DNA from: Verrucomicrobiota bacterium
GTDB lineage: Bacteria > Verrucomicrobiota > Verrucomicrobiia > Limisphaerales > PALSA-1396
DNA: 64,000 nucleotides
Assembly: GCA_016200005.1 (NCBI GenBank)
Contig: JACQFP010000036.1
Location: forward strand, 1-64,000
Direction of reading: 5' to 3'
In this document: in pieces, positions 9,913-62,806 of the stretch
Numbering within the stretch: the first letter of the stretch is position 1
Layout: each line of letters begins with the position of its first letter
Position numbers and translations under genes: made by a program
Notes under the pieces: model-generated
What the model saw: the letters and a program-made list of their open reading frames with translations, nothing else
Database searches by the model: none
Told to the model about the DNA's origin: nothing

Positions 9913-9918
9913 TGAAAC

Positions 9919-9984
9919 CACGGATTTCACGGATGACACGGATAATGCAATTCCCATCCGCGTAATCCGTGTAATCCGCGGTCA
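9919..9984. repeat. Inverted pair of nonamer arrays
   Basis: Three nonamers of type CACGGATTT (9919-9945) face three of type CCGCGTAAT (9958-9984) across a 12-base loop, giving an imperfect palindrome. It is the same architecture as the heptamer array pair at 30132-30236. Confidence 0.8.
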
Positions 9985-30083: not shown

Positions 30084-30131
30084 GACGACGGTTGTTTAAT
30101 CATGATTGGGCGCTGATGAACATAAAAAAAA

Positions 30132-30236
30132 CGTGATGCGTAAATCGTGAAACGTGATGCGTGATACGTGAAACCATCCTGCGATGCTAATAACATCACG
30201 CTTCACGCCTCACGTTTCACGTATTACGCCTCACGC
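30132..30236. repeat. Inverted pair of six-unit heptamer arrays
   Basis: 30132-30173 is six exact-length heptamers of type CGTGATG/CGTGAAA; 30195-30236 is six heptamers of type TTCACGC/CTCACGT, the reverse complement, across a 21-base loop. The right array runs into fabD: its last unit supplies the final alanine codon and TGA stop of FabD on the minus strand. No unit is interrupted, so this is a tandem array and not a CRISPR. Confidence 0.92.
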
Positions 30237-31208
30237 AACCAATACCCTCACCGTGGCTTCCAAACTCGCCACATCCGCCACATTGAGCATCTGCGCGTTC
30301 TTGTCGATGCGCTTCATGAAACCGCTCAGCGCTGTCCCCGGCCCAAGTTCGATGAACCGGGTGAAGCCCTGAGCCAGCAGGTGGCGCATGGACTCTTCCC
30401 AGCGAACCGACGACGTGACTTGCAGGACGAGCTGCGAGCTGATCTGGTCGGGAGTGGTGTGTGGTAGTCCGGTAACATTGGAAATAACAGGAACGGTTGG
30501 CACCAGGATTTTTGATTTGCCGAGTTCTACCTGAAGTTTCGCTTGTGCGCTGGCCATCAGCGGCGAGTGATATGCGCCCGCCACCGGCAATGGAATCGCT
30601 CGCTTCGCCCCCTTCGCTTTGGCAAGTTCACACGCCTTCGCGATTCGTTCTGCTTCACCGGAAATGACGAGCTGGCCGGGGCAATTCAGATTCGCCAGCA
30701 CCACGCCCGCTTCGGCGCAGACTTCGCGCGTGGGCGCTTCGTCGAGGCCGATGACGGCTGCCATGCCGCCTTTGGTCACCTCGCACGCCTCCTGCATGAA
30801 GCGACCGCGCTGGCGCACGACGCGCAGACCGTCCTCGAAACTCAACGCGCCCGCCGACGTCAACGCCGTGAATTCACCGAGCGACAATCCCGCCGTCGCC
30901 TCGAATTCAAGTTGGAGTTCACGCTTTAGCGTGTCAGTGGTGGAACAAGCTGAAGCTTGAACTCCAACGCGCTCCTTCAGCAATTGGAACGCGACCCAGC
31001 TCACGAGGAAGATGCCGGGCTGCGCGTTTTCGGTCCTGGTCAATTCGGCGTCCGGTCCGTTGAAGCAAATGGCTGTGAAATCGTAGCCGAGCGTGGCGTT
31101 GGCGCGGTCGAACCACGCGCGGGCGGACGGGAATGCAGTAGCGAAGTCTTTCCCCATGCCGACGACCTGCGCGCCTTGCCCGGCAAACAGCAGTGCGGTT
31201 TTGCTCAT
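30231..31208 (-). CDS. fabD: Malonyl-CoA:ACP transacylase with an in-frame palindromic insert
   Basis: A 325-residue protein, ATG at 31208. FabD motifs: LLFAGQGAQVVGMGKDF, the catalytic serine at about residue 109 in AGLSLGEFTAL, then RGRFMQEA, and the active-site histidine in VAGAYHSPLMASA. GLSLG replaces the commoner GHSLG. It transfers malonyl groups from CoA to ACP. Residues 81-100 (VGVQASACSTTDTLKRELQL) are an extra segment encoded by a family A palindrome (30911-30968) placed just before the catalytic strand. The stop codon comes from a heptamer array. First gene of the fab cluster. Confidence 0.95.
   Translation of the reverse strand: MSKTALLFAGQGAQVVGMGKDFATAFPSARAWFDRANATLGYDFTAICFNGPDAELTRTENAQPGIFLVSWVAFQLLKERVGVQASACSTTDTLKRELQLEFEATAGLSLGEFTALTSAGALSFEDGLRVVRQRGRFMQEACEVTKGGMAAVIGLDEAPTREVCAEAGVVLANLNCPGQLVISGEAERIAKACELAKAKGAKRAIPLPVAGAYHSPLMASAQAKLQVELGKSKILVPTVPVISNVTGLPHTTPDQISSQLVLQVTSSVRWEESMRHLLAQGFTRFIELGPGTALSGFMKRIDKNAQMLNVADVASLEATVRVLVA
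30911..30968. repeat. Palindromic repeat of family A inside fabD
   Basis: A 58-base element with arms GTTGGAGTTCACGCTTTAGC and GCTGAAGCTTGAACTCCAAC, the same as in the intergenic copy at 9804-9860. It is translated in frame in FabD on the minus strand. Confidence 0.93.
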
Positions 31209-39475: not shown

Positions 39476-39481
39476 TCGTGA

Positions 39482-39509
39482 GTCAGCAGTTAGTGGTCAG
39501 TAGTCAGTA
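39482..39509. repeat. Heptamer array, 4 units
   Basis: GTCAGCA, GTTAGTG, GTCAGTA and GTCAGTA in direct succession. It is the inverse of the array at 39906-39933 (unit ACTGACT), and the two enclose the four-helix-bundle gene. Confidence 0.85.
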
Positions 39510-39536
39510 GCATGAACAGCCAACAGTCCAAATGAT

Positions 39537-39917
39537 ATGAAGAGCAAAACGGCGTTCGAGAATCTTCGCATTTATCGCTTATTAGAAAATTTGGCGGATT
39601 CAATTTGGGATGTCGTGCTTGGTTGGAATCGATTTGCGCAAGACACAGTCGGCAAACAAGTCGTTCGCTCGGCAGATAGCGTTGGCGCCAACATTGCCGA
39701 GGGCACCGGCCGCGGTTCTTACCAGGACAATCGCCGCTTTGCCCGAACCGCGCGCGGTTCACTCAATGAGACGCAGCATTTTCTCCGGCGCGCTTACAAA
39801 CGCAAATTGCTGACCACCGACCAGGTAAAAAGGCTGAAGCCGCTCGTTGATAATCTGGCTCCGCAGTTGAACTCCTACATCAAGAGCATCGGACGCACAG
39901 GTGCAACTGACGACTGA
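39537..39917 (+). CDS. Four-helix-bundle protein (23S rRNA intervening-sequence type)
   Basis: A 126-residue protein, ATG at 39537. It has the family blocks FENLRIYRLLENLADSIWDV, KQVVRSADSVGANIAEGTGR and ETQHFLRRAYKRKLL, all helical. Homologues are encoded inside 23S rRNA intervening sequences of spirochetes and as free-standing genes in many phyla; molecular function is not established, and a DNA- or RNA-associated role is suspected. The TGA stop is inside the downstream heptamer array, and arrays in opposite orientation flank the gene, suggesting that it travelled as a unit. Confidence 0.9.
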   Translation: MKSKTAFENLRIYRLLENLADSIWDVVLGWNRFAQDTVGKQVVRSADSVGANIAEGTGRGSYQDNRRFARTARGSLNETQHFLRRAYKRKLLTTDQVKRLKPLVDNLAPQLNSYIKSIGRTGATDD

Positions 39918-39933
39918 CTACGGACTACTGACT
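39906..39933. repeat. Heptamer array, 4 units
   Basis: ACTGACG, ACTGACT, ACGGACT and ACTGACT in direct succession. It contains the TGA stop of the four-helix-bundle gene (39915-39917) and ends one base before the GTG start of the MFS gene at 39935. Confidence 0.88.
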
Positions 39934-39934
39934 C

Positions 39935-41188: not shown

Positions 41189-42487
41189 TCAAACCGCTCT
41201 TCGCATCCGCGCAACATAAGCACCATCAGCGCCATCCACGAACGGCAACAATTCGCGTTCCGCTTCCAGTTTGAATTCGGCGTGTTCGCCTAGAAATCGC
41301 TTCGCCACTTCCCGATTCTCCTCCGGTTCAAGGCTGCATGTGCTGTAAACCAAAACCCCGCCCGGCTTCACTTGCGGCGCGGCCTGGTTCAGCAAATCCA
41401 GTTGCGTGGCGCGCAGCCGTTCGATTTCCTCCGGCCGAATGCGCCAGCGCAATTCCACACGCCGACGCATCACGCCGGTGTTGGAGCACGGCGCATCCAC
41501 GAGCACGCGGTCGTAGAAAGTTGAGGGTTGAAGGTTGAGGGTTGAGAGTAAAATTGTTTCGACGCACGTCGCTCCCAGCCGGACGCTGTTCTCCTTAATC
41601 AGGCTCAACCGGCTCTCAGAAACATCTGCGGCAGCGATGCGACCTTGGTTTAGCATGAGTTGCGCGATGAACGTCGTCTTGCCGCCGGGCGCGGCGCAAA
41701 AGTCCAGAATTATTTCGCCTGGTTGCGGGTCCAGTTCACGCACGGCCAGCAAGGTGCTCGGGTCTTGAACATAAAATAGTCCCTGTTGAAAACTCGGCAG
41801 GCTTGTCAGCGGAGGATGAGACTTCAATTCGAACATCAGGTCGTCGCCCGTCCAGTTCCAACGGCGCGTGGTGAATTCGACTCCTTCGCGATCCCACTGC
41901 GACTTGAGCGCGGCGGCGTCGGCCTTCAACGAGTTGCGGCGCGCATAAGTCGGCGGCGGCGTGTTGTTCCAATCCAGCAGTTGCACCGTGGAGGTGTCGC
42001 CCCAGCGTTTGCGCCAGCGTTCCACCAGCCATTCGGGATGGGAGAAGCCGAGGTGCGGTTGATCCGTTTTTAACTGCTCCAGCAGCTTTTGAGTTTTCGT
42101 CCGCTCCCGGACATAGCCGCGCAAGACCGCATTGATGAATCCGGCTTGCGCACCAAACCCAAGTTGCTTGCCCAGCTCAACGGTCTCATGGACGGCGGCG
42201 TGATCGGGAATGCGATCGAGCCAGAACATCTGGTAAAGCCCGAGGCGCAACAGGATTTGCAGGAGCGGTTTTTGCTGGCGCGCCCCGGTTTTGCGCGCGA
42301 TGAGCCAATCGAGCGCGCTCTGCCAGCGCACGATTCCATAAACCAGTTCCTGACAAAGTCCGCGGTCGGCCGGGGAGAGCGCAGCGCCGGACAATCCCGT
42401 TTCCAACAGGTTTTCCACGTAATCCACCCCCTGCGCCTGCTGGTGCAGGAGACGCACGGCAATTTCTCTTGGTTTTTGAACGGTCAC
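41189..42487 (-). CDS. rsmB: 16S rRNA (cytosine-C5) methyltransferase RsmB/Sun
   Basis: GTG at 42487, 432 residues. The NusB-like helical N-terminal domain (REIAVRLLHQQAQGVDYVEN to about 140) precedes the RNA methyltransferase domain with the AdoMet motif ILDFCAAPGGKTTFIAQL, the catalytic VLVDAPCSNTGVMRRR and the second cysteine in VYSTCSLEPEEN. It methylates C967 of 16S rRNA in E. coli. Near residues 314-323 the protein contains LSTLNLQPST, encoded by four tandem heptamers (41521-41548) and inserted between the motif strand and DRVLVDAPC. Length is otherwise normal. Confidence 0.95.
   Translation of the reverse strand: MTVQKPREIAVRLLHQQAQGVDYVENLLETGLSGAALSPADRGLCQELVYGIVRWQSALDWLIARKTGARQQKPLLQILLRLGLYQMFWLDRIPDHAAVHETVELGKQLGFGAQAGFINAVLRGYVRERTKTQKLLEQLKTDQPHLGFSHPEWLVERWRKRWGDTSTVQLLDWNNTPPPTYARRNSLKADAAALKSQWDREGVEFTTRRWNWTGDDLMFELKSHPPLTSLPSFQQGLFYVQDPSTLLAVRELDPQPGEIILDFCAAPGGKTTFIAQLMLNQGRIAAADVSESRLSLIKENSVRLGATCVETILLSTLNLQPSTFYDRVLVDAPCSNTGVMRRRVELRWRIRPEEIERLRATQLDLLNQAAPQVKPGGVLVYSTCSLEPEENREVAKRFLGEHAEFKLEAERELLPFVDGADGAYVARMRRAV
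41521..41548. repeat. Heptamer array, 4 units, inside rsmB
   Basis: TTGAGGG, TTGAAGG, TTGAGGG, TTGAGAG. On the coding strand this is CTCTCAA-type, the same heptamer as the five-unit array at 61346-61380. Slippage by one unit (7 bases) would shift the reading frame of rsmB. Confidence 0.88.
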
Positions 42488-45180: not shown

Positions 45181-45300
45181 AACGCAGAGACGCCGAGAAC
45201 GCCGAGGAACGCGGAGTGGTTGAGAAGCAATGCGGGCAACAACGGGTGAATTCCTGTTATCCAATCTCTGCGGGTCTTAGCGGCCTCGGGTCTCTGCGTT
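45181..45300. repeat. Inverted pair of nonamer arrays
   Basis: Four nonamers at 45181-45216 (AACGCAGAG, ACGCCGAGA, ACGCCGAGG, AACGCGGAG) face four at 45265-45300 (TCTCTGCGG, GTCTTAGCG, GCCTCGGGT, CTCTGCGTT). The outermost units are exact reverse complements. Confidence 0.8.
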
Positions 45301-45317: not shown

Positions 45318-45366
45318 CTCTGGCCTCTGCCCTCTGTTTTCTGCTTTCTGTTTTCTGCTTTTTGCT
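45318..45366. repeat. Heptamer array, 7 units
   Basis: CTCTGGC, CTCTGCC, CTCTGTT, TTCTGCT, TTCTGTT, TTCTGCT, TTTTGCT. The drift from one unit type to another along the array suggests repeated unit duplication with mutation. Confidence 0.85.

Positions 45367-61306: not shown

Positions 61307-62806
<1,500 letters not shown>

Follow-up and report, generated by a model that had tools for sequence, protein, structure and literature searches.

Paired heptamer arrays in a Verrucomicrobiota genome as probable terminal arms of hairpin elements that encode S23/IVP proteins

Tandem heptamer arrays have been reported in bacteria for decades without an agreed origin. They are known in Beggiatoaceae, cyanobacteria, and Bacteroidetes (PMC4679880), as well as in Xanthomonas and Nostoc, in a report that cites a polymerase-footprint hypothesis (PMC4692102). 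The S23 proteins (Pfam ID PF05635, “23S rRNA intervening sequence” protein, or IVP) are in turn a large orphan family of unknown function. In Coxiella, the intervening sequence (IVS) of the 23S rRNA gene carries 2 to 3 GACAGAT heptamers, in strain-variable number, 5' of S23p and is closed by a 28-bp terminal stem (PMC4990558). A search of the literature available without subscription found no paper that ties PF05635 to repeats outside rRNA.

Here we analyze a 64-kb stretch of the genome of a Verrucomicrobiota bacterium (hereafter, the window; Table 1), in which heptamer arrays and an IVP gene occur together. The elements described below resemble the 23S rRNA IVSs of Leptospira and Coxiella in having one PF05635 open reading frame (ORF), a length of about 0.43 to 0.5 kb, and inverted repeats at the two ends that pair into a stem enclosing the ORF. 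However, they are located between protein genes and not in an rRNA gene, reach up to 19 copies per genome, and have arms that both consist of tandem 7- or 8-mers changing from copy to copy. With the cyanobacterial STRRs, the TAACTGA repeats of Beggiatoaceae (PMC4679880), and the GGGANTN repeats of Xanthomonas (PMC4692102), the arrays share a period of 7, several different units, an intergenic location, partly degenerate units, and length variation between relatives. The likeness to STRRs drawn in the preliminary description of this DNA is apt: intergenic tandem heptamers with several units are found within one genome. In contrast, the accessible parts of those reports give no element, systematic inverted partner, or linked protein, whereas the arrays described here are most likely the arms of IVP elements, or remnants of such elements. 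As with MITEs and insertion sequences, full and ORF-less copies have their ends in common and empty sites exist, but there is no transposase, and the terminal repeats are not constant between copies, changing instead with the encoded protein.

Table 1. Repeat arrays and the IVP gene in the 64-kb window
Feature	Position	Strand	Remarks
CGTGANN heptamer arm 1 of ORF-less inverted pair	30132..30173	+	between fabG and fabD (both -)
CGTGANN heptamer arm 2 of the same pair	30195..30236	-	reads CGTGANN on - strand; overlaps fabD stop
TCAGTNN arm, upstream end of IVP element	39480..39512 (array 39482-39509)	+	
IVP/S23 four-helix bundle protein, PF05635/TIGR02436, 126 aa	39537..39917	+	stop codon inside downstream arm
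NNACTGA arm, downstream, inverted copy of TCAGTNN arm	39902..39934 (array 39906-39933)	-	
Solo GTTGANN array within rsmB coding sequence (gene on -)	41521..41548	+	translated as LLSTLNLQPSTF
Solo YTCTGNN-type array	45318..45366	-	
Solo exact AACTCTC x5 array, GTTGANN family on - strand	61346..61380	-	
Nonamer inverted pair CACGGATNN / NNATCCGTG	9917..9982 (arms 9917-9943, 9956-9982)		loop 12
Nonamer-like inverted pair ACGCAGAGA / TCTCTGCGT	45181..45300 (arms 45181-45197, 45285-45300)		

The preliminary description had listed seven arrays with a strict period of 7, and all of them are present at the places given and have that period. It had also called them exact and uninterrupted, which is true solely of the array at 61346 (100% in TRF); the others are degenerate, with about 5 fixed and 2 free bases per unit. 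Since the 61346 array represents GTTGANN on the other strand, the unit families number four (CGTGANN, TCAGTNN, GTTGANN, and YTCTGNN), as had been reported. Both proposed inverted pairs are borne out by local alignment, with a score of 37 and a loop of 24 for 30132/30195 and a score of 33 to 36 and a loop of about 400 for 39482/39906. The two nonamer pairs are inverted as well (scores of 34 for the pair at 9917 and 26 for that at 45181), the former with the same layout as the heptamer pairs, and none of the IVP loci collected in this work has CACGGAT nonamer arms. No inverted partner lies within 1.5 kb of the arrays at 41521, 45318, and 61346. The one in rsmB lies in the methyltransferase domain, is read in frame on the stop-free C-rich strand, and is apparently an in-frame insertion in a loop.

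The protein encoded between the TCAGTNN arms scores 86.6 bits against PF05635 (cut-off, 33.8) and 87 against TIGR02436 (cut-off, 24). Its predicted structure (pLDDT 94.6) is a four-helix bundle with a TM score of 0.88 to PDB entry 2GSC; the best structural matches of the model are the S23-family structures 2GSC and 2RLD, with five chains each, followed by the phage protein Avd (4DWL). The predicted fold is thus that of a pentamer-forming family. The genome of the window (designated G000) has 14 matches to the S23/IVP family, most of them with inverted, unit-matched arrays on both sides, and the unit is different at nearly every copy. The IVP-rich isolate Robertkochia sp. 3YJGBD-33 likewise has 14 matches.

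A total of 120 distinct IVP loci were taken from the genome of the window, many genomes of the same order, and named genomes of several phyla (Chloroflexota, Bacteroidota, Nitrospirota, Nitrospinota, Planctomycetota, and others), most of the data being metagenome assemblies. For each gene, the 300 nt on its upstream side were aligned in inverted orientation to the 300 nt on its downstream side, and the highest score was kept. Inverted arms with a score of at least 30 were found at 81% of these loci, compared to 1.6% when the two flanks came from different loci and 1.1% when random intervals within the loci were used; the observed mean score was reached by 0 of 20,000 permutations, and direct-orientation matches were far fewer. 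The arms consist of tandem repeats with a period of 7 (74 of 99 cases) or 8 (19 of 99). Their unit varies among elements, being, for instance, TCAGTNN at the IVP of the window and GTTGANN at that of L178, and agrees between both arms of the same element. In 92 of 99 cases, the upstream arm is rich in G on the strand that encodes the IVP, and the median element length is about 500 bp. Mismatches between arms are concentrated in two adjacent heptad phases, which hold 223 of 357 against 184 expected (0 of 500 shuffles). The number of units per arm has its mode at five; considered as proof of a pentamer, it is suggestive only, given its wide spread. Arms could not be detected at about 10% of IVPs, and neither of the two cyanobacterial plasmid IVPs tested has any. 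Searches of the window and of 20 IVP loci gave neither an rRNA nor an Rfam match, and the flanks are protein genes; flanks conserved among IVP loci of different families, considered as candidate rRNA insertion sites, are actually shared protein-gene junctions.

Taken with the tracking of the unit by the protein and with the full, deleted, and empty alleles described below, these flanking unit-matched arms lead us to regard the inverted pairs as the ends of IVP elements. We assign a probability of roughly 0.72 to the reading in which small hairpin elements carrying an S23/IVP gene have the paired heptamer arrays as their terminal arms and give rise, by internal deletion, to ORF-less pairs such as 30132-30236. 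As part of the same explanation, these elements would be intergenic relatives of the 23S rRNA IVSs.

The alternative that fares best, though we consider it unlikely, is a regulatory network maintained by host selection, in which the IVP, or proteins of the S1, Csp, or Csr type, binds the arrays and controls translation of its own gene and of the neighbors. Such a role has already been proposed for the TAACTGA repeats (PMC4679880), and it would suit both the occurrence of arrays near gene ends and the position of the upstream arm just 5' of the IVP start, at a median of 53 nt before the start of the domain. However, the neighboring genes are diverse, and elements have been gained, deleted, and lost at a single site among relatives, which is expected of a selfish element rather than of an essential control. 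Thus, the operon junction before a TatD-like gene is empty in many families (gap of 2 to 40 nt), and is occupied by a full GTTGANN element in G000, G003, G047, G084, and others; a GTTGANN hairpin without the ORF is found there in G048, and a decayed IVP in G026. At one site in the genus g15, a full element in G061 corresponds to an empty allele in G015, whereas in G084 both arms are retained with residual IVP sequence, most of the ORF being gone. As this residue shows that the G084 allele derives from a full element, ORF-less pairs do arise by internal deletion, at least at this site. A site with full, deleted, and empty alleles attests to gain and loss, as seen with mobile elements in general, and not to movement itself; no target-site duplication is evident in the compared alleles, whose flanks are 80 to 94% identical with blurred boundaries.

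At two of the loci upstream of the TatD-like gene (L320 and L327), the stop codon of the upstream gene is a TGA of the array, so the element has changed the end of that gene. The upstream arm sometimes provides the stop codon of the preceding gene, but three-frame stops are no more common upstream (28%) than downstream (29%), and supply of stop codons is therefore not the general purpose of the G-rich arm. In the genome G037 (L337), the TatD-like junction has a different, longer hairpin along with an apparent remnant of a heptamer arm.

It is quite improbable that the arrays came first, i.e., that the inverted arrays are host terminator or attenuator hairpins into whose loops the IVP gene homes as a passenger. 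In favor of such an origin, the rRNA IVSs are located in rRNA hairpins (PMC4990558), ORF-less pairs exist, and a U run follows the 30132 hairpin on the transcribed strand. However, the empty alleles at the TatD-like junction and the g15 site contain no array at all, the ORF-less G084 allele comes from a full element, and the unit follows the IVP subfamily and not the site.

In the ORF-less pair at 30132, all 7 mismatches between the arms fall in the two free positions, and a CGTAA variant is common to both arms at the corresponding unit. Its transcript has a predicted RNA fold of -60.2 kcal/mol (z, -8.9). The hairpin at 30125-30240 (- strand) is followed by at least 7 U on the fabD-to-fabG transcript and resembles an intrinsic terminator or attenuator. 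A comparable pair is absent from the fabD-fabG gap in the other families examined. At L162, L159, L174, and L175, which come from such families, the gap is either empty or occupied by different short inverted repeats, CACAGAT/ACGGAT nonamer pairs among them, and it may therefore be a recurrent landing site.

The link between unit and protein extends well beyond the genome of the window. IVP pairs with at least 60% identity have the unit in common in 33 to 42% of cases at unrelated flanks, as against 1 to 2% for distant pairs, and the TCAGTNN unit of the window is shared with 76%-identical IVPs of another family. On the IVP tree, period 7 versus 8 requires 11 changes, compared to a shuffled mean of 19.1 (0 of 500), near-copies contributing a little. 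The unit of the ORF-less 30132-30236 pair, CGTGANN, is found in the arms of an IVP elsewhere in the same genome (contig C68, positions 30230-30727; L189). CGTGANN-type arms are also seen at homologues of this protein that are 56 to 67% identical to it, in Verrucomicrobiota (G113, G118, and G109) as well as Chloroflexota (G131, twice, G112, G133, and G111); at one of these homologues only the downstream arm is readable (L357), another has CGTGTTC mixed into its arms (L359), and a further one in this identity range has the unit CGTAATG (L370, in G132). The units are CGTATTC, CGTGGTG, and CTGCGTA at 50 to 55% identity and unrelated (GGTGGCA, GGCAAGT, GAATGGC, and others) at 40 to 48%. Unit and period thus co-diverge with the IVP protein, the unit across at least two phyla.

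The preliminary description had attributed the arrays to length-measuring slippage, with enrichment of period 7 as a check. In an 816-kb sample of the 6.54-Mb, 87-contig genome, about half of it picked around arrays, we counted 52 lag-7, 8 lag-8, and 0 lag-9 arrays, and a Markov control sequence gave 0; the 373 kb that had not been picked for arrays contained 5, 2, and 0, respectively. The CGTGANNx3 pattern occurs 86 times in the complete assembly, against 2 for the backward control. About two-thirds of the arrays in the sample are solo, without an inverted partner; they may be relics or have another origin. Among the paired arrays, the loops form one class of 18 to 81 nt (ORF-less) and one of about 340 to 540 nt, some of the latter with an IVP gene and some without a recognizable one, along with a single loop of 198 nt.

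Slippage alone, with the preferred step set by the polymerase footprint and with the pairs and IVP neighbors incidental, has slightly lower odds than a host origin. It accords with the excess of period 7 and with a whole-unit change in length between sister species, one arm in G061 having ATCGTTAC six times where that of its sister genome G084 has diverged; the idea is also in print already (cited in PMC4692102). As the cause of the paired arrays, however, slippage is contradicted by the inverted, unit-matched pairing around a single protein family; it might apply to the solo arrays, provided that their units are unrelated to those of IVP arms. Nor does it account for a unit and a period (7 or 8) that follow IVP phylogeny across phyla, for arm mismatches in two adjacent heptad phases, or for the near absence of GTTGANN arrays from IVP-free genomes: GTTGANN matches average 0.1 in 20 IVP-free genomes versus 15.8 in 76 genomes with IVPs (kinship ignored). 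GTTGANN array number and IVP number are correlated in these 96 genomes (rho of 0.59, or 0.58 after genome size, kinship likewise ignored). Polymerase slippage thus explains little. A within-genome test for cognate arrays gave a weak excess: 29% of the arrays in G000 match the arms of its own IVPs, and 16 to 25% match those of same-order genomes. Exact (CGTGATG)n arrays were also seen in Rhizobacter, Acidovorax, Burkholderia, and Streptomyces (L010, L040, L041, and L080), in genomes without a PF05635 match.

In the favored interpretation of the paired arrays as IVP element ends, the IVP, a protein with a pentamer fold, would most likely bind the tandem units of the element's own single-stranded RNA or DNA. 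Plausibly, each subunit would take one repeat unit, with about 5 contacted and 2 spacer bases, and such binding by a ring would hold the core and the period fixed while the spacers drift. TRAP is a ring protein that reads spaced repeats, (G/U)AGNN. A TRAP-like ring would be expected to leave a footprint of constant spacing and free spacer bases, but binding by the IVP is our own proposal, the period here is 7 or 8, and the fold is unrelated. Tentatively, we extend this to the possibility that S23/IVP proteins in general form rings that read tandem heptamers, with a word specific to each subfamily, and that the scattered arrays of many bacterial phyla, including those of the STRR type, are the binding tracts and relics of elements that these proteins maintain or move. 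Movement of the element would need no encoded or genomic reverse transcriptase. The window's IVP resembles Avd, the accessory protein of diversity-generating retroelements (DGRs), in its four-helix fold and the five-chain crystal forms, but no reverse transcriptase, TR, or VR was found with IVPs. It is very improbable that the hairpins are copied by a trans-acting reverse transcriptase with the IVP as its Avd-like partner, as might be suggested by the similarity to phage DGR Avd, since PF00078 has no match in 51 of 96 genomes of the order, IVP-rich ones among them (G003 and G062 with 11 IVPs each and G007, G014, and G080 with 8 each).

Because the repeat word changes in step with the IVP, a class of repeats and an orphan protein family would explain each other. 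Seeing the paired arrays as the ends of IVP elements provides them with a cause and leads to a directly testable prediction, namely, that an IVP recognizes the heptamer of its own element; hairpins that are processed or regulatory are likewise expected within many operons. It suggests that such arrays mark the history of mobile elements rather than slippage noise, and if IVPs are indeed ring-shaped readers, these elements would constitute a new class of selfish elements with a repeat code that the protein specifies.
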